Shown: positions 1 through 14,507, counted from the stretch's first letter. The stretch is DNA of 64,000 bases from an uncultured Pelagibacteraceae bacterium (GCA_902513955.1 CABXOW010000005.1:1-64000), one strand, 5' to 3'. Program-made: numbers and translations. Notes: a model not told the origin generated them from the letters alone.

Positions 1-2100
1 AATAATATTTTCTAAAAGTTTTGAAACGTTATTATCAAATTTATTCCAGGGTAAGCTACCGCAAAATGTAATAGAACCCGTCGAAAATACTGAACCACCA
101 CCAGGAATCTCAAAATAAACCATGTCAGCTTGTAAAATTTCTTCCTCAGGAAGATGTTTAATATTTGATAAGTGAGTCAGTTGTGACTCTGGTACAAGTA
201 TAAAATTTTCTTTAGGATTCTTTGAAGCTTTAGATTGCGCTAATAAAGTTATATCTTTAATGGAAGTAAGATGAGAATCTATATGATCTAATTCAAAACC
301 TGCTGCTCCATTGCCGCTAAAACCAAAATCTCCTATCTGATCTTCTTTTATACCTTCAAAAACCCAATCAAATTTTGAGTCAAAACATTTTCGTTTATAG
401 GGATGTCCATAAAAATTTCCCTGGGCTGTAAAACCAACGCCAACAAGTTCTTGTGGCGCTCTTCCGCTTCTTCTCCATAGACCACCATAGGTTCCATCAA
501 AAGCGTTATATGCTTCACCTGGTTCAGATGCCCAAGCACGTATACCTCCCTCAGGTCTTCTAATTTCTAATATATTTTTATTTTCTTTATGAATAGCAAT
601 ACGCCAATAAAAACCATTCCCTCCTAAATAATTAAGAGATCCACCATTATCACGAAAATCTCGTAAAGCATCTAAAGTTTCTTTTGTATGATATTCTGGA
701 TGTGAACCTGTGATAACAGTTTTATATTTTTTTATAGCTTTAAAACCATCTTGGTGAAGTTGTTCATCAGTAACAATTTCATATTCAAATCCTTTATTAT
801 GTAGCCAACTAATTAAATGACTGTCAGCTTGAAAATGTCTTAAACCAGAACAAGGAGATTTAGAACCACCAAATGTTATATATCCTGGTCTTAAATTGAA
901 TAAAGGTCTTCGATGTGAAGCATGGCAAATTCCAGCTCCATCGGAATGATAATTATATGTTGAAAGGCCATATTCCTTATGATTTGCGGGATTATAAAGA
1001 TAAGCATTCCAATCTTTAATTCGATTTAGCCAGCTATCTTTATAGTCAACTCGAGCATGATTTCCATAAATAGAATATGTAAAAGTAGAAATTAAAATAC
1101 AAATTTTAGTTTTTGTTTTTCCTATAGGTGGAGCAACAAAAAAAGGCATCGCGTCTTCATAATCTTCACAGCTAATTCTCATAACATATATTCCTGATGG
1201 CATATTTTTAGGAATAATAAATTTAAAATCTGTTTTCCATTCAAAGTCGTAAATATCGTCTTCATGAAAATGAATAGCCGCATAGTGTTTAGGTTTGTGT
1301 TGCCAGTTCATTTCTGAACTATCCCATTTAGATCCAGTAACAGCACGTGTTGGAAAATTTTTTAATAATAATTTCGGACCAATAATTGAATCCACAAATG
1401 TAGAGCTTGTATTATTAGACAAGTCCCAATCTCCAATTTTTTTACCATCAGCATTTATTATTGGTGACTCAATTTTTCCATTAAAATGATTATGACTTAT
1501 TCCTTTAGAGACAATTGCTGCTAAAGATACTTTGCCAAAAAGAACCTTATTTATTGGCATTTTTCCATTATTAATTAGATCTTTTTCATTTTTATTTTTT
1601 AGATTTTTTTGAGAAATAGATACTTTTCCACTTAAAGAAATTTTAACATTAATCTTGTACCAAGATCTTAATATTAAAGGTTCTTTAATAGAAATAGAGT
1701 TATTTCCTACTCTAATAGAAGTTGCTCCATTAGAATTTATATAAATTTCAACATTATCAAAGGCTAAAATTGTTTGTTGTTTTGATGAAGAAAGAGTTGG
1801 GAAAATAATTACAGATAAATTTAAATTTTTCTTAATAGAAACTTTTATTGGCGTTTTGCATATTGCATAAGAGCCAGGTTTAAAAGACTGTTTTCTTGAT
1901 TTAAAAGAAGATGTTTTAAAATATTTTGATGCATCTTTTTCAACTATACCAATTCCTTTTGGATTAGGATCTGCACTTATGGATCTTTTTAAACTTGCGC
2001 TAAATGATTTTTTTAGTGTTGAAGATACTTTAAATGATACTGTTTCACCTGGTCGTAATGATAATTTATCTGAGTACCCTATTAATGGAATATTCTTCAT
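1..2100 (-). CDS. N,N-dimethylformamidase-like large subunit (3' end beyond window)
   Basis: An uninterrupted frame of 700 codons runs from ATG at 2100 off the left edge, so the C-terminus is missing. It resembles the large subunit of N,N-dimethylformamidase, an iron amidohydrolase releasing an amine from a small N-alkylated amide. The last visible residues (GSITFCGSLPWN) match the family's C-terminal region. A His-Pro-Glu motif near residues 466-468 (TGSHPEY) fits the iron-site segment; the Paracoccus enzyme uses two tyrosines and a glutamate. No signal peptide is visible, so it is probably cytoplasmic. The start overlaps the dctM stop by 4 bp (ATGA), implying co-translation with the TRAP carrier. 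No small-subunit gene is seen upstream. The exact substrate cannot be read from sequence. Confidence 0.82.
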   Translation of the reverse strand, partial: MKNIPLIGYSDKLSLRPGETVSFKVSSTLKKSFSASLKRSISADPNPKGIGIVEKDASKYFKTSSFKSRKQSFKPGSYAICKTPIKVSIKKNLNLSVIIFPTLSSSKQQTILAFDNVEIYINSNGATSIRVGNNSISIKEPLILRSWYKINVKISLSGKVSISQKNLKNKNEKDLINNGKMPINKVLFGKVSLAAIVSKGISHNHFNGKIESPIINADGKKIGDWDLSNNTSSTFVDSIIGPKLLLKNFPTRAVTGSKWDSSEMNWQHKPKHYAAIHFHEDDIYDFEWKTDFKFIIPKNMPSGIYVMRISCEDYEDAMPFFVAPPIGKTKTKICILISTFTYSIYGNHARVDYKDSWLNRIKDWNAYLYNPANHKEYGLSTYNYHSDGAGICHASHRRPLFNLRPGYITFGGSKSPCSGLRHFQADSHLISWLHNKGFEYEIVTDEQLHQDGFKAIKKYKTVITGSHPEYHTKETLDALRDFRDNGGSLNYLGGNGFYWRIAIHKENKNILEIRRPEGGIRAWASEPGEAYNAFDGTYGGLWRRSGRAPQELVGVGFTAQGNFYGHPYKRKCFDSKFDWVFEGIKEDQIGDFGFSGNGAAGFELDHIDSHLTSIKDITLLAQSKASKNPKENFILVPESQLTHLSNIKHLPEEEILQADMVYFEIPGGGSVFSTGSITFCGSLPWNKFDNNVSKLLENII

Positions 2101-3389
2101 CGTGTTGGACCATAAACCAAGTCAGGAAGATAAGTTACCCAATCCGAAAAGAACACTAAAATTAAAACCATTAAAACATATGGAATTAAAAGAGGTAAAA
2201 CTCCTATTGATATCTCTTCAATAGATATTTTGCTTATTCTAGCTGCAACAAATAAATTAATTCCTATTGGTGGAGTAAGAAATCCAATTTCACAGGTCAT
2301 CACTGTAAATATTCCAAAAACAACTGGGTCTATTCCAATTTTTGTTATTAATGGAAAAAAGACAGCTGTAAAAATAATAATTTGAGGAATGCTTTCTAGC
2401 CACATTCCAACTATTATATAAAGTATACCTATTAACAGCATTACTAACCAAGGATAATTTGCTATCCCTTGAAACAAGCCTAGTATTGTTTCAGGAATAT
2501 CATAGATTGTTACTAGCTGACCAAATGCTTTTGTAGATCCTAAGATAAATAATACTGTACCAATAACAATTGCTGTAAATTTAAATGCTTGAAACAATTT
2601 ACTTAACGTTAATCCTTTATAAATAAAAAAACCTACAAACAAACCATATGCTACTGCTACAGCTGCAGCTTCAGAAGGTGTAAAAATTCCAGCATATATT
2701 CCACCTAATATAATAATTGGAGCAAATACCGCCCATTTTCCATCCCATAAAGCACAAAGTAATGGTCTAAATATAAATTTTTCTCCATCTCCACCGTAAT
2801 TATTTTTCATTGAAACAACAAAAACAACCACCATTAACATTAAACCAAGAATTATCCCTGGAAGAATTCCAGCTAGAAAAAGTCTTGGAATAGAAATATC
2901 AGTTACAAGAGCAAATATAATTAACAAGTTAGACGGTGGTATCATACTTCCTAAAGCTCCTGCTGCGGCTGCAATACCTCCTGCAAATCTAGAACTGTAA
3001 CCTTCTTTTTGCATAGCAGGAATTGTAATAGAACCAATAGCAGCAGTAGTAGCTGGTCCAGAACCAGAAAGTGCTGCAAAAAACATGCATGCAACAACTG
3101 TAACCAAACCTAGTCCTCCTTTATAAGCACCTACTAATTTTTTTGCTATTGTAACTAGTTTTTCAGACATGCCACCATGTTCCATTAATTGACCAGCTAA
3201 AATGAACAAAGGTATTGTGACTAAGGGAAAAGGTTCAAATGCTGTCCATGCGCTTAGTGCCATAAGTGACAGCGGAATATCTGCTATTATTAAACCCCCT
3301 ACAGTTGCTATACCTGCAGAAAATGGAATAGGCACACCAATAGCCATTGTAAAAACAAAAATTAATCCCATAGCTAAAGGTCCGCTCAT
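2097..3389 (-). CDS. dctM: TRAP transporter large permease (DctM family)
   Basis: Twelve-helix-type large membrane subunit of a TRAP transporter, which moves a substrate handed over by a periplasmic binding protein using the sodium gradient. The protein is hydrophobic throughout, with family segments such as ALSGSGPATTAAIGSITIPA near residues 90-110 and GFLTPPIGINLFV near residues 360-375. I place the start at the Met of MSGPLAMG (ATG at 3389), giving 430 residues, normal for the family. That start makes a 4-bp ATGA overlap with the dctQ stop. A longer frame reaching 3428 would overlap dctQ by 43 bp and is less likely. The stop overlaps the amidohydrolase start, so import and hydrolysis appear coupled. 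Confidence 0.93.
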   Translation of the reverse strand: MSGPLAMGLIFVFTMAIGVPIPFSAGIATVGGLIIADIPLSLMALSAWTAFEPFPLVTIPLFILAGQLMEHGGMSEKLVTIAKKLVGAYKGGLGLVTVVACMFFAALSGSGPATTAAIGSITIPAMQKEGYSSRFAGGIAAAAGALGSMIPPSNLLIIFALVTDISIPRLFLAGILPGIILGLMLMVVVFVVSMKNNYGGDGEKFIFRPLLCALWDGKWAVFAPIIILGGIYAGIFTPSEAAAVAVAYGLFVGFFIYKGLTLSKLFQAFKFTAIVIGTVLFILGSTKAFGQLVTIYDIPETILGLFQGIANYPWLVMLLIGILYIIVGMWLESIPQIIIFTAVFFPLITKIGIDPVVFGIFTVMTCEIGFLTPPIGINLFVAARISKISIEEISIGVLPLLIPYVLMVLILVFFSDWVTYLPDLVYGPTR

Positions 3390-3868
3390 AAAGGTAAACC
3401 TTTCCATCCTGTATTTTTCCACTGCCAATAAACTTGTAAAATTCTAAATAACATTAAACCAAATATCATTGGAATAAACATTTGAAGCCACTTCAACTCT
3501 ATATTTAAACCGGGAAGAACATAACTTACATCAAATAAAAGTTGTGTATAAATTATTGTTTGATAAATCATAAATCCGACAAAACTTAGCCAAAAAATAT
3601 CAGCCAAAACAATCGAACTTACTTGTAATTTTTTTGGTAAACGAAATACTAAAAAAGTTATTCTAACATGAGCTCTTTCTTTTACACCTAGAGCTGCACC
3701 AAGATACACGGCAAAAATTAAACCATAAACAGCAGTTTCTTCTGGCCAGGCAGCTGCTGAAGAAAAACCAAATCTTAAAATAACTTGAGTTATTACTGAA
3801 ATAAATACAACGCTTAAAAAAAATGTACACAACACTTCCTCAAAGTATTTATTCAGTTTTTTAATCAT
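3386..3868 (-). CDS. dctQ: TRAP transporter small permease (DctQ family)
   Basis: A 160-residue protein with four predicted membrane segments (roughly residues 14-32, 48-62, 85-105 and 128-146), the size and layout of DctQ. It partners the large permease in a TRAP transporter in the inner membrane. It lies between dctP and dctM, overlapping dctM by 4 bp. It is separated from dctP by 81 bp holding a strong stem-loop, so its expression is probably lower than that of dctP. Sequence conservation in DctQ proteins is weak; the call rests on size, topology and neighbours. Confidence 0.9.
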   Translation of the reverse strand: MIKKLNKYFEEVLCTFFLSVVFISVITQVILRFGFSSAAAWPEETAVYGLIFAVYLGAALGVKERAHVRITFLVFRLPKKLQVSSIVLADIFWLSFVGFMIYQTIIYTQLLFDVSYVLPGLNIELKWLQMFIPMIFGLMLFRILQVYWQWKNTGWKGLPL

Positions 3869-3888
3869 TAATTGAATTATATTAAAAA

Positions 3889-3929
3889 TTAAAAAAGGGC
3901 GCTAGTAATTTTGATACTTAGCGCCCTTT
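3889..3929 (-). terminator. Stem-loop with T-run between dctP and dctQ
   Basis: On the minus strand a perfect 11-bp stem (AAAGGGCGCTA pairing with TAGCGCCCTTT, plus-strand positions 3919-3929 and 3894-3904) is followed at once by TTTTTAATTTTT. It sits directly downstream of dctP and upstream of dctQM. It has the form of an intrinsic terminator acting as a partial attenuator, or a 3'-end stabiliser for the binding-protein mRNA. Its stem GC content stands out from the local AT background. Confidence 0.8.
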
Positions 3930-3949
3930 AAATTAAGTTAAAAAAAAGT

Positions 3950-4960
3950 TTAGTTAGCTGCCGCTCTAATTGCTTGAACAAAAGCTGTAAACTCTGCACC
4001 TTTTTCAGTTGCGTAACGATCCTGTACTCTTTGACCTGCTGCTATAAAGTCAGCACGCTCAAACTCAACAGTTTTCATTCCACCTTGTCCCTCGGTTGTA
4101 AGGAATTTACGGATTTCAGAAGTAGCAGCACCCATTAATTCTTTTTGATAATCGCTAGCTTCTTTTGCAGCTCTAAGAAGTGCTTTAGTTTGATCAGCAT
4201 CTAATTTTTTCATCAATCTTGGACTTGCCATTAATGGTGAAAAGTATGTAAAATGCTCTAGAACTGTAAAATAAGGCATGATTTCATAAAATTTTGCAGA
4301 TTTAATGAAAGAAGTTCCATTATCAGCGCCTTGAACTGTTCCTGTTTGTAATGCTGTCGGTGTATCTGCCCAAGGAAGAGGTATTGGTGCAGCACCAAAT
4401 TCTTTAAAAGTATCTATCATCACTTGATTTTTTGGAACTCTAACTTTTAAACCCTTCATGTCAGCCATTTTTGTAATAGGTTGTCTTGAGTTATAAAAAT
4501 CACGATCTCCAACGAAACCAAAAGCTAAAAGATGGATTCCTGTAGCATCAAGTAATTTCTTTTTGTAGCTATCTCCAACAGGTCCTTCTAATACTTTGTA
4601 AGCATGAGCTTTATCTTTAAATATGTAAGGCAAAACAAAAGCATCTGTTAATCCAAAGTGTGGGGATATATTATTACCAGTAATGATACTCATATCCACA
4701 GTACCTAATTGCATTGCTTTAAAAGCCTCATCTTCTTTTATAAGTTGAGCACAACATCTAACTTTTACTTCTAAACTACCGTTAGAATATTTTGCCGCAA
4801 GTTCCGCAAATTTTGTAGCTAATGGTTGATAAGCACTTTTTTCACCACCGCCGTGTCCTAGATTTATTGTTACGTTTCCTGCATTTGCGCTTTGTAATGA
4901 TAAACTTAACGAGAAAATTACCGCGAAAACTGCAAGAGTTAATTTTTTGAATATATTCAT
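3950..4960 (-). CDS. dctP: TRAP transporter periplasmic substrate-binding protein (DctP family)
   Basis: Periplasmic solute receptor of the TRAP system (336 residues). It has a clear signal peptide with a hydrophobic core at about residues 9-22 and likely cleavage after ANA near residue 27. The family's ligand-binding arginine is in MKGLKVRVP near residues 165-173, followed by the typical GAAPIPLPWADTPTALQTG stretch. A Cys-Cys pair near residues 68-69 (VRCCAQL), where relatives usually have Asn/Gly-Gln-Leu, is unusual for a secreted protein. A strong ribosome site (GAGGGA) precedes ATG. As first gene of the minus-strand group it is followed by a hairpin, fitting higher expression than dctQM. 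The coupled amidohydrolase suggests an amide ligand; this is inference. Confidence 0.92.
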   Translation of the reverse strand: MNIFKKLTLAVFAVIFSLSLSLQSANAGNVTINLGHGGGEKSAYQPLATKFAELAAKYSNGSLEVKVRCCAQLIKEDEAFKAMQLGTVDMSIITGNNISPHFGLTDAFVLPYIFKDKAHAYKVLEGPVGDSYKKKLLDATGIHLLAFGFVGDRDFYNSRQPITKMADMKGLKVRVPKNQVMIDTFKEFGAAPIPLPWADTPTALQTGTVQGADNGTSFIKSAKFYEIMPYFTVLEHFTYFSPLMASPRLMKKLDADQTKALLRAAKEASDYQKELMGAATSEIRKFLTTEGQGGMKTVEFERADFIAAGQRVQDRYATEKGAEFTAFVQAIRAAAN

Positions 4961-5100: not shown

Positions 5101-5143
5101 AATATTTTAAGTCCTTTGTGTCTACCAATTTCACCACGAGGGC
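5101..5143 (-). pseudogene. tRNA-Leu(UAA) fragment, 5' half only
   Basis: Reading the minus strand from 5143, GCCCTCG (acceptor 5' strand), TG, GTG, a D-loop AAATTGGTAGA and CAC follow the tRNA-Leu pattern. An anticodon stem AAGGA and loop CTTAAAA (anticodon UAA) come next. After the loop, pairing with the 3' anticodon strand decays, and no variable arm, T-arm or acceptor 3' strand follows. It cannot be a functional tRNA. A break at the anticodon stem-loop is where many tyrosine integrases cross over, so this may mark an old integration or excision event at the border of the accessory island. Confidence 0.8.
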
Positions 5144-5217
5144 TTTAATGAATTTCATGAGTATTTATGCTAATATTTATAATTGAACAAGTTTAATAAG
5201 TAAATTTTTTTTATTTT

Positions 5218-5238
5218 ATCTGTCTATGTGCTGATAAT
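5218..5238 (+). repeat. Imperfect 21-bp direct repeat, left copy
   Basis: ATCTGTCTATGTGCTGATAA(T) matches 18 of 21 positions of the copy at 5682-5702. The two copies flank the lipoprotein gene in the same orientation. The central TCTATGTGCTG is identical. Confidence 0.65.
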
Positions 5239-5273: not shown

Positions 5274-5642
5274 TTACTTAACTGGAATTGTAAAGTTGGG
5301 TGTATAAGTTCTATGCTTGTCAGTAATTGAGTCTGTTATTCCTAAATCAAAAAATACTACGCTACCCGCTAATTTAGCACCTTCCATTTCACTTGGGATA
5401 CTTCCAAATGCCGTTTTTCCTTCAGCAGTTTTACAATCATACTTTAATGCATCATCTGAACGTCTAATTTGATTTGTACCTGGTACATCAACTTTATATT
5501 GCGCTCTTTTATTTGAGAGATTACAAGTTCCAGAGCTACCATCACTAAATGAAAGCGTCACAGGAACATTGGCATCATTAACTATAGTAGCGCATGAAGT
5601 TAAAAAAACTATAATAGATATAGAAGCCAAAGTTTTAAACAT
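5274..5642 (-). CDS. Small lipoprotein of unknown function
   Basis: A 122-residue secreted lipoprotein: hydrophobic signal (FKTLASISIIVFL) ending in the lipobox LTSC, then ATIVND. The frame could start at a TTG at 5678, but ATG at 5642 puts the signal peptide at the N-terminus and is preferred. The mature part has a Cys in SGTCNLSNK, a second in KYDCKT and a Gly/Ala-rich hydrophobic stretch (GAKLAGSVVFFDLGITDSITD) before a TPN-containing end. This resembles a widespread family of small proteobacterial lipoproteins without assigned role. It stands alone between two direct repeats at the island edge. Confidence 0.78.
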   Translation of the reverse strand: MFKTLASISIIVFLTSCATIVNDANVPVTLSFSDGSSGTCNLSNKRAQYKVDVPGTNQIRRSDDALKYDCKTAEGKTAFGSIPSEMEGAKLAGSVVFFDLGITDSITDKHRTYTPNFTIPVK

Positions 5643-5681
5643 AAATTTAAACTTAAAGCATTTATTATGTTTTGGCAATAC

Positions 5682-5844: not shown

Positions 5845-6861
5845 ATGATAAAAAATAAATTGATAATTAATTCTTCTCAAAATAATAAACAGCTACTTCA
5901 AAAGGAATTGGACATATTTTTTAAACTTTTAAATATTTTGGTTAAAACTAAGCCTTATTTAGTTGTAATAGTTTTGCATGAATATTTCAGAAACCTTTAT
6001 CCGGATGATACGTTTTTAAAATTTTCAGAAAATAATCATAAAAAAAGAATAACCAAAACATTAAAGCAGTTAATTAAATTTGTTAAAATAAGTAGCAAAA
6101 TTAAAAGCTACAATATCAAATTTAAAAAAGAGCTGGTTCATAAAAATTTAATTGAAAAAAATGATTTAGTTTTTTCTAAAATTTTCTTAGCTCATGAAAA
6201 TAAAATTCATAATAAAAAATATTTAAACAATCTTAAAAATTTAGGATTAAATAAAAGATACTTTAAAAATAAATATATCCTAGATGCTGGTACTGGTGCG
6301 GGCAGACACGCAAAAATCTTTAGCTCACTATCTGCTAGAAAAATTATTGCTGTTGATAATAAATTGACAATAAAAAAAAATCTTAAAGAGACAAAAATAA
6401 AAAATGTTATTTACAAGGAAGGAAATGTTTTAAATTTAAAATTTAGAAAATCAGTTTTTGATTTTGTTAATTGTTACGGTGTATTACATCATACATCCAC
6501 TATAGATAAGGGAATTCAAGAACTTCTACGTGTACTAAAAAAAGGAGGTTATTTGCTTTTATATATCTATGGTAGAGGTGGCATTTATTGGAAGAGCAGA
6601 AAAGAAATGAATAAGATTTTCAGAAACATTCCACAAAATTACACTAGAAAAATTTTTGAAATAATTAATGTACCAAAAGAAAGATTTATTTTTGAGGATT
6701 GTTGGTATGCACCAATTGAAACGTATACTTATAAAAAAAAATTAGAAAAAATACTGATTGGTCATAAAATCGATTCTTTTAAAAGACTAATTAATAAAAC
6801 TTTTGAGAAAAATAAAAATATTTGGGGTGATGGGGAATTAATATATTTAATTAAAAAATAA
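5845..6861 (+). CDS. SAM-dependent methyltransferase, class I
   Basis: A 338-residue protein with a Lys-rich N-terminal region of about 140 residues and a Rossmann methyltransferase core. Motif I is LDAGTGAGRHAKIF near residue 147, the acidic ribose-binding residue is in IIAVDNK, and motif IV/post-IV is FDFVNCYGVLHHTS, followed by ELLRVLKKGGYLLLYIYG. This is the methyltransferase-11/12 type. It is followed after about 50 bp by a carbamoyltransferase, so it probably methylates a sugar or other surface-glycan component. The acceptor cannot be read from sequence. Composition is more AT-rich than the housekeeping genes, fitting an island gene. Confidence 0.82.
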   Translation: MIKNKLIINSSQNNKQLLQKELDIFFKLLNILVKTKPYLVVIVLHEYFRNLYPDDTFLKFSENNHKKRITKTLKQLIKFVKISSKIKSYNIKFKKELVHKNLIEKNDLVFSKIFLAHENKIHNKKYLNNLKNLGLNKRYFKNKYILDAGTGAGRHAKIFSSLSARKIIAVDNKLTIKKNLKETKIKNVIYKEGNVLNLKFRKSVFDFVNCYGVLHHTSTIDKGIQELLRVLKKGGYLLLYIYGRGGIYWKSRKEMNKIFRNIPQNYTRKIFEIINVPKERFIFEDCWYAPIETYTYKKKLEKILIGHKIDSFKRLINKTFEKNKNIWGDGELIYLIKK

Positions 6862-6915
6862 ATATCTTTTATTTGATTTAATGTTAATTAATTCTCTAAC
6901 TGTATATTGATAAAA

Positions 6916-8595
6916 ATGAAAATATTTTCAATTCATAACGGGATTAATTCGAGCGCTGCGTATTACGCCAATGGGAAAATTTTAGAGGCAGTTTCAGAAG
7001 AAAGATTTAACAAAATCAAAAATTATAATGGTATGCCATTGATGTGTATTAATTACATTCTAAAAAAATATAAGTTAAGTTTTTCATCTTTTGATAAAAT
7101 TATATATCCAACATGTGCATTATTGAAAATACCTAAAGAAATTGAGGCAAATATTAAAAATAGATATGATAATTTAGAAACAACTTATTTAAAGAAAAAA
7201 TTTACTCACAGAATATTTACAGAAGAAAAATGGGCTAAAAGACATATGTATCAATTTTTAAGATATTCAAAAAAAAATAATTTTTTTAATAAGGTTGAGC
7301 TAATTAGTCATCACAAGGCCCATGCCTACTCTGCTTATTCTTTCTCTCCATTTAAAGAATCATTAATAGTAACTTTTGATGGCAAAGGAGATTTTAAATC
7401 ATCCACTGTTAGTGAAGTGAAAAATAAAACATGGAAAAACCTGGATTACAAATCAACATTTGATAGTCTTGGATATTTCTATGGTAATGTTACACAAGTA
7501 CTGGGCTTTAAACCTGAAAGACATGAGGGTAAAACCACTGGATTAGCAGCCTTTGGTAAAAAAACTTCTCTAATAAGATATTTTGAGAGTTTTATTAAAA
7601 TAAAAAATAATGATTTTTCAATTAACTTTTGTAAAGATTATATGCCTTATTTTAGTACGAAAAATCAACTTCCTAACTTTTATAAAAAATTATTAAAATA
7701 TAACAAAAAAGATATTGCGCATGCAGCTCAATATATATTGGAAAAAGCGATTTTAAGTTACATAAAAAAATTTCTTAATAATAAAAAAAAACAAAATATT
7801 TGTTTAGCAGGAGGTATTTTTGCTAATGTTACATTAAATAATAAAATTTTATCCTTGCCTGGAATCAAGAATATCTTTATTCAGCCAGCCATGTCCGATA
7901 CAGGATTACCCTTAGGTGGTATTTATGCTTATCTTTCAAAAAATTCTGTAAAACAAAATTTTAATTTTAATAATGTTTTTTTAGGACCTGAATTTTCAAA
8001 AAATCAAATTAGAAATAAATTAAATAAGGAAAAATTAGCTTATAAAGAAGTCAATGTATCTAATGAAATTCTAAATAGTTTAAATAATAAAAAGATTATA
8101 GGTTTATTTCAAGGCAGAATGGAGTTTGGTCCAAGAGCGTTGTGTAATAGATCAATTATTTACCACGCAAAAGATAAAACAATTAATGACTGGCTTAATG
8201 TTAGACTAAAAAGATCTGAGTTTATGCCTTTTGCGCCAGTGACTATTGAAGATTATGCCTTAGATTGTTTTATTGGGTGGAAACATGATCATTTTGCCTC
8301 AGAATTTATGACATTAACATATAAGTGCACAAAAGAAGTGATAAAAAACTATCCTGCATGTGTTCATATTGATAACACTGCTAGACCTCAAATTATTTAT
8401 AAAAAAAGAAACCCTAAATCATATAAAATATTTAAAGATTATTTTAAAAAATCAAAACAAAAATTACTTTTAAATACATCATTTAATATGCATGAAAAAC
8501 CCATTTTATGTGATCTTGATGATGCAGTAAAAGCTATCAGAAACAAAACAGTTGATGTAATTTTTATTGAAAATTTTATGATTAGTAGAAATTAA
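6916..8595 (+). CDS. Carbamoyltransferase (NodU/CmcH/TobZ family)
   Basis: A 559-residue enzyme of the family that transfers carbamoyl from carbamoyl phosphate to a hydroxyl group through a carbamoyl-adenylate. The N-terminal Kae1-like domain starts FSIHNGINSSAAYY and holds EERFNKIKNYNG, a histidine cluster SHHKAHAYSAYSFSPF near residue 130, DGKGD and AGGIFANVTLN. The C-terminal part has GRMEFGPRALCNRSI and LNTSFNMHEKPI, both typical. ATG at 6916 is preferred over TTG at 6907. It follows the methyltransferase in the same direction and converges with a glycosyltransferase. Likely role: carbamoylation of a surface polysaccharide sugar. The acceptor is unknown. Confidence 0.9.
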   Translation: MKIFSIHNGINSSAAYYANGKILEAVSEERFNKIKNYNGMPLMCINYILKKYKLSFSSFDKIIYPTCALLKIPKEIEANIKNRYDNLETTYLKKKFTHRIFTEEKWAKRHMYQFLRYSKKNNFFNKVELISHHKAHAYSAYSFSPFKESLIVTFDGKGDFKSSTVSEVKNKTWKNLDYKSTFDSLGYFYGNVTQVLGFKPERHEGKTTGLAAFGKKTSLIRYFESFIKIKNNDFSINFCKDYMPYFSTKNQLPNFYKKLLKYNKKDIAHAAQYILEKAILSYIKKFLNNKKKQNICLAGGIFANVTLNNKILSLPGIKNIFIQPAMSDTGLPLGGIYAYLSKNSVKQNFNFNNVFLGPEFSKNQIRNKLNKEKLAYKEVNVSNEILNSLNNKKIIGLFQGRMEFGPRALCNRSIIYHAKDKTINDWLNVRLKRSEFMPFAPVTIEDYALDCFIGWKHDHFASEFMTLTYKCTKEVIKNYPACVHIDNTARPQIIYKKRNPKSYKIFKDYFKKSKQKLLLNTSFNMHEKPILCDLDDAVKAIRNKTVDVIFIENFMISRN

Positions 8596-9410
8596 ATTAA
8601 TTTTTTTGATAAAAAATTTCTATCTATAACAACTTTTTTGAAAAGCAAAAAAGACAAATATAATTTTTTTTTTAGTATTAATTGTGAAGTTAATATTGAA
8701 AAAAAAATTGATATATAAAGTCCATATCTTGCAAAAACGTTATAAACACTTAGGTCGTAATGTTTTGCTCTACTTTTCAAATCTCTAATATCTTTATATT
8801 TTTTATAATATTTCATTTTAGATGTAGTTTCTAATTTTCCGTTTAATAAAATTTCAAAATGCATAAAAACCTCTGAATTAAGCATTTTTTCAGACATCGA
8901 ATAGTTTGGTTTTTTTGTTCGAAATATTGAATGAAGCATAAGATCACCATAACTATAAGTGATATAATTTTTTATTCTCTTTTCCAAAGTACCATTTAAA
9001 TAGCGAAGTAGAGGGTTAATCTTATTTTTTTTACCAAAATTAATGATATTTCCTGATACTCCAGAAACATCTTTTTTTTTTGATATAATCTTAATACCAT
9101 TTTTTATATAATCTTTATCTAGATAGTCATCATCATGAACTAACAAAAAATAATTATTACTACACTTGTTAAATAAAAAATTATGGTTTTCATAAGCTAA
9201 TAATTTTTTTTTATGTATAAAAATTTTAATTTTTTTTTTGTGTTTACTTTTAAATTTTTCACATATCTTAATTATATTTTTTTTTTTTTTATAAACAGAT
9301 ATTAATAATTCAAAATTAGTATAAGTTTGTAAAAAAATTGAAGAGATAGTTTTATTAATAGTTTTTTCTCCACTATAACTAGGTAAAATTATTGAAATTT
9401 GGGGCTTCAT
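8592..9410 (-). CDS. Glycosyltransferase family 2
   Basis: A 272-residue GT-A-fold transferase. The N-terminus ISIILPSYSGEKTINKTI is the nucleotide-sugar binding strand, and LLVHDDDYLDKDYI near residue 95 holds the DDD metal-binding motif. The C-terminal part is basic with a hydrophobic stretch near residues 228-250 that may associate with the membrane. Its stop overlaps the convergent carbamoyltransferase stop by 4 bp. Its ATG lies one base after the stop of a truncated gamma-glutamylcyclotransferase fragment. Likely role: adding a sugar to a surface glycan. Long A/T runs give it an island-like composition. Confidence 0.87.
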   Translation of the reverse strand: MKPQISIILPSYSGEKTINKTISSIFLQTYTNFELLISVYKKKKNIIKICEKFKSKHKKKIKIFIHKKKLLAYENHNFLFNKCSNNYFLLVHDDDYLDKDYIKNGIKIISKKKDVSGVSGNIINFGKKNKINPLLRYLNGTLEKRIKNYITYSYGDLMLHSIFRTKKPNYSMSEKMLNSEVFMHFEILLNGKLETTSKMKYYKKYKDIRDLKSRAKHYDLSVYNVFARYGLYISIFFSILTSQLILKKKLYLSFLLFKKVVIDRNFLSKKLI

Positions 9411-9411
9411 A

Positions 9412-9564
9412 TTAATTTTTTAAACTCTTAACTAAAAATTTTTTATCAAGACTGCGATCTTTGTAGCCTTTTTTAACTATATTTAAATAACGTTCTGTAG
9501 GAAACTTAAATACAGATTTTTTAACCATAGTATATGTCATTACTTTCTTACTATAATAATAAAA
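9412..9564 (-). pseudogene. 3' fragment of a gamma-glutamylcyclotransferase-like gene
   Basis: The minus strand encodes MTYTMVKKSVFKFPTERY through a final SLKN and TAA at 9412. This is the same C-terminal 42 residues as the intact gene at 13356-13757, with 34 of 42 identical. Nucleotide similarity continues upstream to about 9564 (FYYYSKKV) and then stops. The N-terminal two thirds, including the YGSN motif, are absent. It is a remnant of a second, diverged copy, and it marks the far border of the CDP-sugar cassette. No independent function is expected. Confidence 0.85.
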
Positions 9565-9583
9565 TTAAAAAAAAAGATTTAAA

Positions 9584-10699
9584 TTATATTACTAGCTCTT
9601 TCTTAATAGCATCAACAACATATTTAACGTCATTTTCTGTTAATTCAAAATAACTAGGTAGATTAATGCCTCTTTTATAAATATCTTGAGAAACAATATT
9701 ATTAGGACAATCTTGGTACATTGAAAAAGAGCTAACAGGATAGAATATTGGTCGTACAGCAATATCTTTTTTATTAAGATTGTTTAACAATCGATTTCTT
9801 TTATCTAAATTAAAATTCCAAGATTTTCCAAAAATAATAGTTGGTAACCAATAACAATTCTTTACCCATGTTGGTTTAGGATTTAAAAATATATCAGATA
9901 AGGATTCTAAATTTTTTCTATACCAATTAAAAATTTGTATTTTTTTTTTAATTAGATCGTCTGCTCTTTCAAATTGAGCCAATCCTAGTGCTGCTTGAAT
10001 ATTTGACATCTTATATTTTAGACCGATTTCATCTACCCAAAAATCTATTCTTCTTGAAGCTTTCCTGCCTTGACTTTCAATTATTGATATCTTTTCGACA
10101 AGATCTTTTCTTTTACAGAAAATTGCACCACCTTCTCCTGATGTTAAAGTTTTTGTGCCGTGAAGAGAAATTACTCCAAAATCTGCAATTGAACCAACTT
10201 TTTGATTTTTGTATTCAGAACCAATTGCTTCTGCAGCATCTTCGATTATATCAATTTTATATTTTTTACCTATTGTTATTATTTCATCCATTTTAGCAAC
10301 ATTTCCATAAGGATGTACAACAATTATAGCTTTGGTTTTTTTTGTAATTGCTTTTTCAATCTTACTAGGATCAATAGAGAGACAGTCATCAAGTACATCA
10401 ACAAAAACTGGTGTTGCACCAAGCCAAGATATGGGGGTCACGCTTCCAATCCAAGTCATATCGGGAACAATCACCTCATCATTTCTACCAATACCTAAGG
10501 CCATTAAAATTATATGGAGAGCTCCATGACAACTTGATGTAGGCCAGACATAGGGCGAGTTAAAGTAATTTTTTAATTTATCAGTAAAACGATGAACATA
10601 ATCATAACAATTTAAACCCCATCCATTTTTAACTGCATCATTCACATAATCAATTTCTTTTTTTGTAATTGAAGGTTTCGCAAATAAAATTTTTTTCAT
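9584..10699 (-). CDS. DegT/DnrJ/EryC1/StrS-family PLP sugar aminotransferase
   Basis: A 371-residue PLP enzyme of the sugar-aminotransferase family. PTSSCHGALHIILMALGIG near residue 55 is the cofactor-binding segment, IIEDAAEAIGSEY near residue 150 has the aspartate contacting the pyridine nitrogen, and SLHGTKTLTSGEGG near residue 180 has the Schiff-base lysine. Because this lysine is present, it is an aminotransferase rather than an RfbH-type 3-dehydratase, where His replaces Lys. ATG at 10699 lies just after the epimerase stop; a TTG at 10711 is less likely. It probably aminates the 4-keto sugar made by the upstream rfbFG products, giving a CDP-linked amino-deoxy sugar. Confidence 0.88.
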   Translation of the reverse strand: MKKILFAKPSITKKEIDYVNDAVKNGWGLNCYDYVHRFTDKLKNYFNSPYVWPTSSCHGALHIILMALGIGRNDEVIVPDMTWIGSVTPISWLGATPVFVDVLDDCLSIDPSKIEKAITKKTKAIIVVHPYGNVAKMDEIITIGKKYKIDIIEDAAEAIGSEYKNQKVGSIADFGVISLHGTKTLTSGEGGAIFCKRKDLVEKISIIESQGRKASRRIDFWVDEIGLKYKMSNIQAALGLAQFERADDLIKKKIQIFNWYRKNLESLSDIFLNPKPTWVKNCYWLPTIIFGKSWNFNLDKRNRLLNNLNKKDIAVRPIFYPVSSFSMYQDCPNNIVSQDIYKRGINLPSYFELTENDVKYVVDAIKKELVI

Positions 10700-10700
10700 A

Positions 10701-11264
10701 TTAAATTTCAATTCCTTTAAATTTGGATAGATCTAAAAATTTATGTTGATCGTCTTTTTCTGAAATATTAGAAATTATCATTGGTAGTTTGATGTTTAAA
10801 TGAGGATCTTTAATATTTAACGCATCTTCATGTTCACCATAAAAATATTCTGTACTTAAATAAAGAATTTGCGAATTATCTTCTAGAGACTGAATTCCGT
10901 GAGCAAAACCCTCTGGGATAATTAGCATTTTTTGATTTTCCTCACTTAAAATTATAGAATCCGATTTCAAAAAAGTTTTTGAATTTTTACGGATATCTAC
11001 AAAAATATCTAAAACCTTTCCATTGATGCATCTTGGCATTTTCATTTCGGCATATGGTGGTTTTTGATAATGCAATCCTCTTACAGCACCTTTTTTATAA
11101 TTTTTAGAATAATTGATATTTACAATTTCTCTATCTTGAATGATATTTTGAAGCTCTCTTTTACAAAAATATCTTGAGAAAATACCTCTCGAGTCAATAG
11201 ATGGGTGTGGCTCTACTACGTATGTACCTTCTAAGCTTAACTTTGTGATTTTTAGTTTACTCAT
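10701..11264 (-). CDS. RmlC-type nucleotide-sugar 3,5-epimerase
   Basis: A 187-residue cupin epimerase. RGLHYQKPP near residue 68 contains the catalytic histidine, IIPEGFAHGIQ near residue 122 is the second signature, and STEYFYGEHEDALNIKDPHL holds the region of the catalytic tyrosine. Length matches dTDP-4-dehydrorhamnose 3,5-epimerase. Placement between rfbG and an aminotransferase suggests the substrate is a CDP-4-keto-6-deoxyhexose rather than a dTDP sugar, and no rmlA, rmlB or rmlD is nearby. It is 3 bp from rfbG and 1 bp from the aminotransferase, so a single operon. Confidence 0.87.
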   Translation of the reverse strand: MSKLKITKLSLEGTYVVEPHPSIDSRGIFSRYFCKRELQNIIQDREIVNINYSKNYKKGAVRGLHYQKPPYAEMKMPRCINGKVLDIFVDIRKNSKTFLKSDSIILSEENQKMLIIPEGFAHGIQSLEDNSQILYLSTEYFYGEHEDALNIKDPHLNIKLPMIISNISEKDDQHKFLDLSKFKGIEI

Positions 11265-11267
11265 TAT

Positions 11268-12335
11268 TTAATATTTACTCTTAAAAAAAAATAATATTTC
11301 TTTTTTTGTGAAATCAAAAATATTAGCTTTATTTTTAAAAAACATTGAATACCAATCTGATGTAAGTTTAATTGTCTGATCCATGTTTAATTTTGCATTC
11401 AAATTAATATCTTTAAGAATTGCATTGCTTGACAATTTTAGAAATTTTTTTTCTTTAAATTTTAATTTTTGGAATTCGTATTTAGTTTTAATAATTTTTG
11501 AATTTTTAATAAAATCTAAAATAAGATCTTTAACTTTTATAGACTTATTTGATTTTGGTCCTATATTATAAATCAAAGATTTTTTAGACACTTTACCTCC
11601 TTTAACTGAGATTAATTTAAGAATACCATTTATAACGTCGAGTATATGTTGCCATGGCCTCGTAGCATTTGGGTTTCTTAGTAGAATATTTTTTTTTTTA
11701 TAACTAGATATAAATAAATCTGGTATTAACCTTGTTTTTTCCCAATCACCCCCTCCAATAATATTTCCAGCTCTTATAATGAAAATATTTTTATTTTTTT
11801 CAAAAAAGGAATATTTATAACTATTTGCAATAAGATCTTGTGCTGATTTGCTAGCACTATAGGGGTCATCTCCCCCTAATGAAAAGTTTTCATTTAAATT
11901 TTTTTTTTGGGTATTTTTATAAACTTTATCAGATGTAAAAACTAAAATATTTTTTAAAGATTTTAATTCTTTTGCTAATTCAAGCAATTTAACAGTTCCC
12001 ATAACATTTGTCTCATAAGTTGCTTGGGATTCAATATAAGATCTCGATAATATTGGTTGTGATGCTAAATGAATTAATATTTGTGGTTTAAATCTTTTTA
12101 TATACGACTTATGATAACTGATCTTACTTATATCGTCATATATTGTTTTAATTTTTTTTTTATACTCTTTTGTATTTGAAATATATCTTAAATCTTTTTT
12201 TTTTAAGGCATAGCCTAAAATTTTTGAACCCATCATTAAAAGGGTTAATGATAAATATGCCCCTACAAAACCAGTGTTACCGGTAATTAAAATTCGTTTG
12301 TTTCTAAAAAAATCTCCATAGATATTTAAATTCAT
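11268..12335 (-). CDS. rfbG: CDP-glucose 4,6-dehydratase
   Basis: A 355-residue extended short-chain dehydrogenase. The NAD-binding motif is ITGNTGFVGAYLS near residue 17, the catalytic YSASK is near residue 158, and TSDKVY supplies the Ser/Thr-Asp-Lys of 4,6-dehydratases. The segment RAGNIIGGGDW followed by RPWQHILD is characteristic of CDP-glucose dehydratases. It converts CDP-glucose to CDP-4-keto-6-deoxyglucose, following the cytidylyltransferase encoded 18 bp upstream. The C-terminal 60 residues are rich in Lys and Phe. Confidence 0.9.
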   Translation of the reverse strand: MNLNIYGDFFRNKRILITGNTGFVGAYLSLTLLMMGSKILGYALKKKDLRYISNTKEYKKKIKTIYDDISKISYHKSYIKRFKPQILIHLASQPILSRSYIESQATYETNVMGTVKLLELAKELKSLKNILVFTSDKVYKNTQKKNLNENFSLGGDDPYSASKSAQDLIANSYKYSFFEKNKNIFIIRAGNIIGGGDWEKTRLIPDLFISSYKKKNILLRNPNATRPWQHILDVINGILKLISVKGGKVSKKSLIYNIGPKSNKSIKVKDLILDFIKNSKIIKTKYEFQKLKFKEKKFLKLSSNAILKDINLNAKLNMDQTIKLTSDWYSMFFKNKANIFDFTKKEILFFFKSKY

Positions 12336-12353
12336 TATAGTTAATTCTTTAGA

Positions 12354-13130
12354 TTACCATTTTTTCCATGGAGCACTTTTTTTCCACATATTTTCTAACA
12401 GAATCTTTTCTCTTGGAGTATCCATGCATTGCCAAAAACCATCATGGATAAAAGCTGAAACTTGTTTCTTTTTAGCAAGAAGAGTTAAAGTATCAGATTC
12501 AAAATTAGATTGATCGTTTTTAAGTGATTTTACAACTTTTGGATCAATTACCATAAAGCCTCCATTAATTCTATCTTTAACAACTTTACTGCTTCTTTTT
12601 TCTGAAAAATTTTTTACAGTGTCATTATGATCTATTTCTAGATCACCAAATCTACCCGGTATGCTTACAGCAGTTACAGTCGCCAATTTCTTTTTTTTAA
12701 CGTGATGTTGAATTAGTTTTTTAATGTTTATATCAGATAAACCATCTCCATATGTTAAACAAAAAAATTTATCATCTTTAATATATTTATATATTTTTTT
12801 TATTCTTCCTCCGGTTAAGGTTTCAATACCAGTATCAACAAGAGTAATTTTCCAATCTTCTTTTTGATTATTTAAAATTTTTACTGAATTCTCAGATAGA
12901 TTTACTTCTAAATCAGAATTTAAATATCCATAATTAATGAAATAGTTTTTAATCATATTGCCCTTATGACCACAGCAAATTATAAATTCTTTTATTCCAT
13001 AATATGAATACATTTTCATTATGTGCCAAATAATAGGTTTATTTCCGATTTCGATTAAAGGTTTTGGAATAAGAGAGTTCTCATCATTTATTCTAGTACC
13101 GTATCCACCTGCTAAAATTACTAATTTCAT
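12354..13130 (-). CDS. rfbF: Glucose-1-phosphate cytidylyltransferase
   Basis: A 258-residue nucleotidyltransferase making CDP-glucose from CTP and glucose-1-phosphate. The N-terminal VILAGGYGTRI is the nucleotide-binding loop and IPKPLIEIGNKPIIWHIMK carries the signature lysine. LTYGDGLSDI holds the metal-binding Asp. TVTAVSIPGRFGDLEI, GGFMVIDP and the C-terminal FWQCMDTPREK match RfbF proteins closely, as does the length. It heads the minus-strand CDP-sugar operon. The 225 bp upstream contain only gene debris, so the promoter probably lies in or near that debris. Confidence 0.93.
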   Translation of the reverse strand: MKLVILAGGYGTRINDENSLIPKPLIEIGNKPIIWHIMKMYSYYGIKEFIICCGHKGNMIKNYFINYGYLNSDLEVNLSENSVKILNNQKEDWKITLVDTGIETLTGGRIKKIYKYIKDDKFFCLTYGDGLSDINIKKLIQHHVKKKKLATVTAVSIPGRFGDLEIDHNDTVKNFSEKRSSKVVKDRINGGFMVIDPKVVKSLKNDQSNFESDTLTLLAKKKQVSAFIHDGFWQCMDTPREKILLENMWKKSAPWKKW

Positions 13131-13151
13131 TATATTTTTTAAAATTTTTAC

Positions 13152-13295
13152 TTAATTAGATATATTATCTTTATATTTTATAAAAGCATAGAATTGATGT
13201 TGTTCAGCAATTTTTTTTAAAACTTTATGTGCTTCTGGAACAACTTCTTTTCCAATACCGTCACCTTATATTGGTGCAATATTATAAGTTTTCAT
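13152..13295 (-). pseudogene. Broken start of an isopropylmalate/isocitrate/tartrate dehydrogenase-type gene
   Basis: From ATG at 13295 the minus strand reads MKTYNIAPI, then a TAA where the family has Pro, then GDGIGKEVVPEAHKVLKKIA ending near EQHQF at 13191. The pattern (I)PGDGIGKEVVPE is the N-terminal signature of the NAD-dependent decarboxylating dehydrogenases. Beyond HQF the similarity ends and a stop comes at 13152-13154. Only about 35 of roughly 350 residues remain, with an in-frame stop, so this is a decayed gene fragment between the intact gamma-glutamylcyclotransferase gene and rfbF. Confidence 0.82.
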
Positions 13296-13355
13296 AAGAT
13301 ATTTTATAACTCAACTTTGTTAACTAGGGATTGCTGAATAACTACTATTTTCATA

Positions 13356-13757
13356 TTAATCTTTTAAACCTTTTTTTAAAAACTTTTTATCAAGACCGCA
13401 ATCTTTATATCCCCTTTTGACTATATTAAGATATCGCTCTGTTGGAAATTTGAATGGTGATTTTTTAACCATAGTAAAAGTCATTACTTTTTTTCCATAA
13501 TAATAAAAGTAATGTTTTTTATATAAAATTGGATAATCTTCATAAACATCTAGCTTTTTTTCATCACTTTTTGAAATTTCAAATAATCCACCTGGTACAA
13601 TTGAATTTTTTTTAGGTTCAATGTCTGCTGCTCTATATTTGCTTCTAAAAGTTAATGTAAAATCTTTAAGATTTATCTTTTTTAAATAAATGCTGTCCTT
13701 ACATCTTCGTTTCATTTGAAAATGATTAAGATTACTACCGTAAGCAAAATAAAGCAT
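13356..13757 (-). CDS. Gamma-glutamylcyclotransferase-like (AIG2/GGCT fold) protein
   Basis: A 133-residue protein with the fold signature LYFAYGSNLNHFQM at the N-terminus (YGSN glycine loop) and a conserved acidic residue in LDVYEDYP near residue 73, where the catalytic Glu of the family lies. GGLFEI near residue 56 is also typical. Members cyclise gamma-glutamyl amino acids to 5-oxoproline or act on related isopeptides; this substrate is unknown. It directly abuts the CinA-type gene. Its last 42 codons recur as a fragment at 9412-9564. One base after its stop comes the ATG of a 16-codon remnant (MKIVVIQQSL). Confidence 0.83.
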   Translation of the reverse strand: MLYFAYGSNLNHFQMKRRCKDSIYLKKINLKDFTLTFRSKYRAADIEPKKNSIVPGGLFEISKSDEKKLDVYEDYPILYKKHYFYYYGKKVMTFTMVKKSPFKFPTERYLNIVKRGYKDCGLDKKFLKKGLKD

Positions 13758-14507
13758 TTAACGATCTACAACTTCAATTTTTTTTTTATTAACAAATTTT
13801 AAAATTTGAGAATTACAATTATCAATTTTAGATTGATCTTCTGATCTAATTACAATTGAAACTCCTAATTTTCCTGCTTGAAAAAAAGGATAGCTTCCAA
13901 TTTCAACATCTTGATTGTCATTTTGAACTTTTGTTAAAGAGTCTGCAATTTCACTTTCAATAGTTCTAAGGTTTATGGTTAAACTTAAAATGGGTTCACC
14001 CCCAACAATACTATTAGTTAATCCCCCTAACATTGATTTTAGTATTGATGGTACGCCAGGTAAACAAAATACATTCTCAACATTAAAACCTGGGGCACCA
14101 CTTGTAGAGTTTAAAATTAAATTAGCATTTTCTGGCATCCAAACCATTTTTTGCCTACCTTCATTAAATTCACCAGGTTTATAATGTGCTTCTAAAATTT
14201 TATATGCCTCTTTATGTATTTCATATTTTAGTCCAAATGCTTTTGAAACAGATTCTGCAGTAATATCATCATGGGTGGGACCAATACCTCCTGTGGTAAA
14301 AACATAATTATAATTTGTCTTAAGTGCATTAAGTGTATCAACTATTGTTTCTTCAACATCTGGAATCACCCTAACCTCTCCTACTTTAACACCTATAGAA
14401 TTTAACCAAGTCGCTAATGTTGAAGTGTTGGTATCTTGAGTTCTGCCAGATAAAATTTCATTACCTATAATTAATATTGCGGCATTAACTTTTGTATTTT
14501 TGGTCAT
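13758..14507 (-). CDS. CinA N-terminal-type / molybdopterin-binding-fold protein
   Basis: A 249-residue protein of the competence/damage-inducible CinA N-terminal family (MoaB/Mog fold), acting on nucleotide pyrophosphate-type substrates in characterised members. Motifs: AAILIIGNEILSGRTQDTNT at the start, YNYVFTTGGIGPTHDDIT near residue 68 (GGxGPTxDD), and NVFCLPGVPSIL near residue 145. It lacks the C-terminal nicotinamide-nucleotide amidase domain of full CinA. The start lies only 20 bp from the divergent sfsA start, and its stop abuts the next gene, so the two minus-strand genes are probably co-transcribed. Confidence 0.85.
   Translation of the reverse strand: MTKNTKVNAAILIIGNEILSGRTQDTNTSTLATWLNSIGVKVGEVRVIPDVEETIVDTLNALKTNYNYVFTTGGIGPTHDDITAESVSKAFGLKYEIHKEAYKILEAHYKPGEFNEGRQKMVWMPENANLILNSTSGAPGFNVENVFCLPGVPSILKSMLGGLTNSIVGGEPILSLTINLRTIESEIADSLTKVQNDNQDVEIGSYPFFQAGKLGVSIVIRSEDQSKIDNCNSQILKFVNKKKIEVVDR

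Follow-up and report, generated by a model that had tools for sequence, protein, structure and literature searches.

The gene ggct (GGACT/AIG2-like) occurs twice in a 64,000-nucleotide stretch of DNA from an uncultured Pelagibacteraceae bacterium, once intact and once as a truncated 3' end on the same strand. The stretch analyzed, referred to here as the window, is contig C5 (CABXOW010000005.1) of a SAR11 draft genome (GCA_902513955.1; 1.2 Mb, 38 contigs). With a probability of roughly 0.6, we read the pair as part of a flexible island that runs from ggct to tRNA-Leu(UAA), has stretches replaced by homologous recombination, retains a ggct scar from an imported fragment, and receives DNA by a second route that leaves halves of the tRNA gene behind. 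The truncated ggct most probably derives from the DNA of another strain.

The ggct scar and the left edge of the island

The window was compared with itself using blastn for DNA and tblastn for protein. A single repeat pair was found, at 13350–13512 and 9406–9568, on the same strand and with 81.6% identity over 163 bp (E 5e-32). At the protein level, the fragment is identical to the intact copy at 41 of 50 residues, spanning codons 84–133. The initial annotation had given the last 42 codons as common (34 of 42 identical); the homology is real, but its extent is 50 codons. The intact gene has a real but modest match to Pfam PF06094 GGACT (33 bits; cut-off 22.8). In both copies the next ATG lies one base past the stop, as had been pointed out, and TAATATGAA follows each. 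TATGAA directly past the stop is private to the two window copies: none of 109 other distinct SAR11 ggct loci has it, and only three of those loci have an ATG of any kind 0–3 nt past the stop.

The fragment and the intact copy differ at 29 of 150 coding nucleotides, 17 of them at third positions, with synonymous (dS) and nonsynonymous (dN) divergences of 1.12 and 0.114. Nine amino acid changes were observed, compared to 20.5 ± 2.0 under neutrality when the same number of changes was placed at random, and none of 20,000 simulations gave a value as low. The fragment frame is open over all 50 codons; random placement produced a stop in 90% of trials. With so few amino acid changes and no stop, the substitution pattern indicates that the two sequences diverged under purifying selection as parts of working genes with separate functional histories, not by duplication followed by decay. 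Recent local duplication, against which the divergence had been argued to speak, is ruled out by dN/dS and the neutral simulation.

The core order purB-map-sfsA-cinA-ggct is conserved. Among 80 SAR11 loci, cinA-ggct order is kept and the sequence past the ggct stop differs, with 37 first-gene families downstream of ggct in the 72 loci that have enough downstream DNA. The comparison across many SAR11 genomes that the initial annotation called for thus finds ggct beside a different block in nearly every lineage. These loci share what defines replacement islands, namely the same chromosomal position, conserved flanks, and strain-specific content. Complete genomes show the variable block closing at tRNA-Leu(UAA), beyond which come a nadK-like gene, tRNA-Thr, tRNA-Tyr, tRNA-Gly, tRNA-Trp, and the tuf-nusG-rplK region. 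The 48 closed islands (ggct to tRNA-Leu(UAA)) range from 70 bp to 25.4 kb in length, with a median of 3.9 kb. Genome G017 (locus L123) has an empty arrangement, in which ggct runs straight into tRNA-Leu and its frame stops inside the tRNA gene.

Identity in 150-bp windows was compared with upstream-core identity by rank correlation over ~3,000 genome pairs. The correlation falls from 0.74 in sfsA to about 0.6 in cinA, 0.5 in the 5' part of ggct, and 0.34 in the last 150 bp of ggct, the part of the tested left flank most decoupled from the core and the place where recombination had been predicted. Over the same distance, the divergence of close relatives relative to distant pairs climbs from 0.39 to 0.81. 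In a cinA window with nearly equal mean identity (0.76), the correlation stays at 0.71 (bootstrap interval of the difference 0.32–0.57), so saturation is not the cause of the drop. On these sequence comparisons, the 3' end of ggct is statistically the edge of an exchanged tract, and the left side of the island has the signature of homologous recombination in a boundary gene. The window's own intact ggct follows the same pattern: identity to its clade mates (L004, L007, L046, and L009) is 0.88–0.91 upstream and 0.74–0.77 in the last 150 bp. This end is therefore also unlike that of the clade mates, and more than one exchange was involved.

Features of the window, from the core flank through the island, are as follows.

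13758..14507, minus strand: CinA-like (MoCF-domain) gene (Pfam PF00994/PF24102); belongs with sfsA, map, and purB to the conserved core flank on the left, in an order kept in SAR11 loci
13356..13757, minus strand: intact ggct (GGACT/AIG2-like), the final conserved gene ahead of the island, with its 3' end as the apparent recombination edge
13192..13295, minus strand: N-terminal remnant of a LeuB/TtuC-like dehydrogenase (in-frame stop, truncated); DNA match continuous with L004 and L036
12354..13130, minus strand: rfbF, glucose-1-phosphate cytidylyltransferase (TIGR02623, 347 bits; cut-off 300)
11268..12335, minus strand: rfbG, CDP-glucose 4,6-dehydratase (TIGR02622, 317 bits; cut-off 278)
10701..11264, minus strand: RmlC-like sugar 3,5-epimerase (PF00908; TIGR01221 at 141, just below the cut-off of 156)
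9584..10711, minus strand: DegT/DnrJ-family sugar aminotransferase (PF01041)
9406..9568, minus strand: ggct 3' fragment (scar), with codons 84–133, the natural stop, and the next 6 bp
8592..9410, minus strand: family 2 glycosyltransferase, starting one base past the fragment stop
6907..8595, plus strand: carbamoyltransferase (PF16861/PF02543)
5845..6861, plus strand: methyltransferase (PF08241)
5274..5678, minus strand: small putative lipoprotein with no Pfam family; an 83% relative occurs elsewhere, in L066
5144..5235, minus strand: promoter-like stretch preceding the tRNA half, with conserved copies in further SAR11 islands
5104..5143, minus strand: tRNA-Leu(UAA) 5' half that stops in the anticodon loop, a putative attachment-site scar
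3950..4960, minus strand: tripartite ATP-independent periplasmic (TRAP) transporter substrate-binding protein, DctP (PF03480)
3386..3868, minus strand: TRAP transporter small subunit, DctQ (PF04290)
2097..3428, minus strand: TRAP transporter large subunit, DctM (PF06808)
1..2118, minus strand: N,N-dimethylformamidase beta-subunit-like gene (PF20254), incomplete because the contig stops here

The TIGR02623, TIGR02622, RmlC-like, and DegT matches bear out the rfbF-rfbG-epimerase-aminotransferase block that had been placed between the ggct copies; its products probably alter surface sugars. The decayed dehydrogenase N-terminus between ggct and rfbF is an addition to the initial annotation, and the same dehydrogenase is intact after ggct in relatives L004 and L036. 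That annotation had also proposed that the CDP-sugar cassette was imported by recombination anchored in ggct. The variable blocks and the recombined 3' end agree with recombination there. The natural 3' end of the fragment is continuous with the glycosyltransferase, carbamoyltransferase, and methyltransferase genes, so it is this segment, and not the CDP-sugar block, that most simply arrived with the fragment.

Extra ggct 3' ends were found in three of the 268 genus genomes with the gene: the window genome, G258, which has two scars (codons 57–131 and 74–130), and G511, which has one (codons 92–132). All of these scars keep the natural 3' end, which suggests that the DNA past a scar, and not the DNA before it, came with the donor gene end. 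G405 was considered as a further double copy and rejected, as its matches overlap (codons 1–86 and 68–131) and look like one frameshifted gene.

We propose that ggct is the last core gene before a SAR11 flexible island extending to tRNA-Leu(UAA), and that strains replace stretches of this island through homologous recombination, crossing over in the conserved flank. The incoming piece, from another SAR11 lineage, would have reached from the donor's inner ggct through the glycosyltransferase, carbamoyltransferase, and methyltransferase genes. Its left end may have joined illegitimately just past the aminotransferase gene, with the donor ggct 3' end staying as a scar.

Halves of tRNA-Leu(UAA) and possible phage-type entry

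No complete tRNA is present in the window. Contig C13, which ends in attachment-arm-like sequence, carries the genome's complete tRNA-Leu(UAA); a further half-tRNA scar lies 2 kb upstream of this tRNA. The fetched loci contain 39 partial tRNA-Leu(UAA) 5' halves (some genomes are counted twice, so these are not 39 independent sites); almost all of them stop at GGACTTAAAA in the anticodon loop. In many cases the conserved promoter-like stretch precedes the half and arm-like repeats (AGTC motifs) follow it, and the combination of promoter-like stretch and half recurs in islands (window 5104–5235, L173, and L113–L132). Closed islands have zero to two halves each, forming the direct repeats of part of a tRNA between modules that characterize additive islands. 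In L048, L052, L054, L057, and L079, ggct overlaps a tRNA of which only the 5' half is present, which points to insertion in the anticodon loop.

The same half, identical at 42 of 42 bp, is found in pelagiphage HTVC105P and in uvMED S35-C6. In both it lies directly past the integrase gene, the layout of a phage-type attachment site. An exact 39-bp half is present in 23 IMG/VR contigs, in two of them within a complete tRNA. One 7.8-kb viral contig, L144 (1–7799), has half-tRNAs at both ends, codes for a primase-like protein, and resembles a satellite; its 545-aa protein has an integrase match below threshold, and integrase relatives at 70–94% are encoded in L159, L163, and L165. Viruses appear to use tRNA-Leu(UAA) as an entry point. 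Among the early genes past half-tRNAs in chromosomes are those for a restriction methylase, an ATP-grasp protein, and a T5orf172 protein. Pfam identified no integrase among seven early cargo genes past half-tRNAs, in islands that were not scanned exhaustively. Of the features of tycheposons, a tRNA border and cargo are present, and no recombinase was seen in the resident modules examined.

As their anatomy shows, elements with the promoter and the tRNA-Leu(UAA) 5' half enter the tRNA gene at its anticodon loop; the half that they bring makes the tRNA complete again, and the older half is left stranded. HTVC105P and the L144 element suggest that a phage-type integrase would carry out the insertion. 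More broadly, and tentatively, with the odds somewhat short of even, ggct-tRNA-Leu(UAA) could be a SAR11-wide site with two routes, in which pelagiphages and small integrase-primase satellites enter at the anticodon loop with a promoter and 5' half that restore the tRNA, while cargo modules bordered by the same repeats (~120 bp) and whole ggct-anchored stretches of island move by homologous recombination without an integrase of their own.

Two further observations concern island content. Genes with a near-identical pilin-like start (FTLIELLVVVAIIGILAAVGVVAYNGYT) recur in the islands of L173, L142, L115, and L016. In the window, the TRAP transporter and the dimethylformamidase-like gene stand side by side directly past the tRNA-half scar (1–4960), a possible amide-use module.

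Alternative explanations for the second ggct end

Several results weigh against the favored reading. The right side of the island has no clear gradient: the nadK flank shows no sharp change away from the tRNA, and a symmetric pattern was not seen. A search of 399 sampled genus genomes for relatives of the glycosyltransferase (E<=1e-20) came back empty, leaving no donor genome; viral contigs yielded no relative either, and no genome with the fragment-glycosyltransferase junction was found. In a tree of ggct 3' ends (149 columns), the fragment and the intact copy pair as sisters with a Shimodaira-Hasegawa-like approximate likelihood ratio (SH-aLRT) support of 77, although the tree is weakly resolved. 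They are also each other's nearest sequence (0.807, with the next at 0.779), and the TATGAA junction belongs to them alone. The initial annotation had named sister grouping as evidence against import, and it is present here in weak form together with that junction. Both 3' ends may stem from one unsampled donor pool, or they may reflect an old duplication. Attempts to place the fragment by tree gave no resolution at 149 columns. Tracing the donor by rfbG was also unsuccessful, the best relative reaching only 51% (G312). Separately, G312 (L194/L195) and G578 (L196) have rfbF/rfbG cassettes between nadK and the tuf region, which is a second variable slot, so this cassette type recurs in the neighboring slot.

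The pairing, proximity, and private junction of the two ends fit an old local tandem duplication in which both copies were long functional and insertion of the sugar cassette later cut the second one short. We consider this unlikely, although it is the best of the alternatives. Two complete copies occur in no sampled genome, and all extra 3' ends are truncated. A dS of 1.1 is on the order of values between SAR11 species, and clade mates L004, L007, L009, and L046 have no second copy in the fetched 10 kb downstream.

Slightly less probable is an assembly or amplification chimera that joins the islands of two strains at an AT-rich stretch. The assembly is a draft, the junction lies in AT-rich DNA and in no other genome, and the complete single-contig genomes searched show a single ggct. 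All three genomes with ggct scars are drafts, so a misjoin is possible. G258 and G511, on the other hand, have independent scars of different extent, the one in G511 matching the query at only 54% identity and lying between open genes, and the window apart from the junction is one coherent stretch of SAR11 chromosome.

An intact gene, cargo, and a same-strand 3' end are the anatomy of integrase islands in gene 3' ends. An element could accordingly attach at the 3' end of ggct, replace it, and displace the old end to the far side. This is improbable, as scars start at codons 57, 74, about 84, and 92, without a fixed crossover point, and no integrase was found among genes between the ggct copies. 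No viral contig has a ggct relative, and the phage-type site is in the tRNA. The variable starts and the viral absence disfavor ggct as an integrase target, and random illegitimate joins on the left account for the scar pattern better than a fixed recombination site does. Least probable is imprecise excision (specialized transduction), in which a tRNA-Leu(UAA) element picked up and delivered the neighboring ggct 3' end; ggct does run into the tRNA in the empty arrangement of G017 and both phage and satellite-like elements carry the tRNA half, but the fragment is followed by the glycosyltransferase rather than a tRNA half, and ggct is absent from viral contigs.

Relation to known systems and implications

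Right past nadK, relative L009 has what we take to be globin-like and phosphatase-like genes. Available parts of the description of SAR11 hypervariable regions HVR1–4 (Wilhelm 2007, PMC2217521) present HVR4 as tRNA-flanked and list a globin, a sigB-regulator phosphatase, and pilins. Because the L009 genes match this list, the ggct-tRNA-Leu locus probably abuts or includes HVR4. Those parts of PMC2217521 give no tRNA-half repeats, boundary gene, or mechanism for HVR4.

The locus is a flexible island of a known kind; replacement islands, hypervariable regions, tRNA-end repeats, and first-half tRNA-Leu sites have all been described. Replacement flexible genomic islands are swapped by homologous recombination and include the Pelagibacter O-chain island (Lopez-Perez 2014, PMC4033161). 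The present locus shares with them conserved flanks, unrelated contents, a boundary-gene recombination peak, and mostly synonymous change. The Pelagibacter case is flanked by rRNA with pntB at its boundary, whereas ggct and tRNA-Leu(UAA) bound the present locus, in which the end of a donor gene is left. As in the additive island fGI-2 of Methylophilaceae (PMC10872708), the cargo modules of the locus vary and part of one tRNA recurs in direct repeats; fGI-2 repeats the last 20 bp of tRNA-Lys, and here the promoter-like stretch and first 39–40 bp of tRNA-Leu(UAA) are repeated. HTVC105P has the same layout as T7-like cyanophages with first-half tRNA-Leu attachment sites, for which integration was shown by polymerase chain reaction (PMC8776855); in the SAR11 host, integration is inferred, and unlike in the cyanophages the genes in many chromosomal modules are cargo and not those of a phage. 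Group III pelagiphages HTVC011P and HTVC025P likewise integrate into host tRNA-Leu, but into a different isoacceptor, tRNA-Leu(TAG), beside trigger factor (PMC6811365). The literature search, which covered open-access sources with most subscription journals outside it, yielded no useful paper on HTVC105P and no description of the locus at this detail.

Few cells in the ocean are as abundant as SAR11, and debate continues over the ways in which their streamlined genomes gain and swap genes. The ggct scar would keep a trace of import between lineages along with a piece of the boundary gene. Fixed boundaries on the left (ggct) and right (tRNA-Leu), scars that can be counted, and a cultured phage with a matching site make the question of gene swapping testable.

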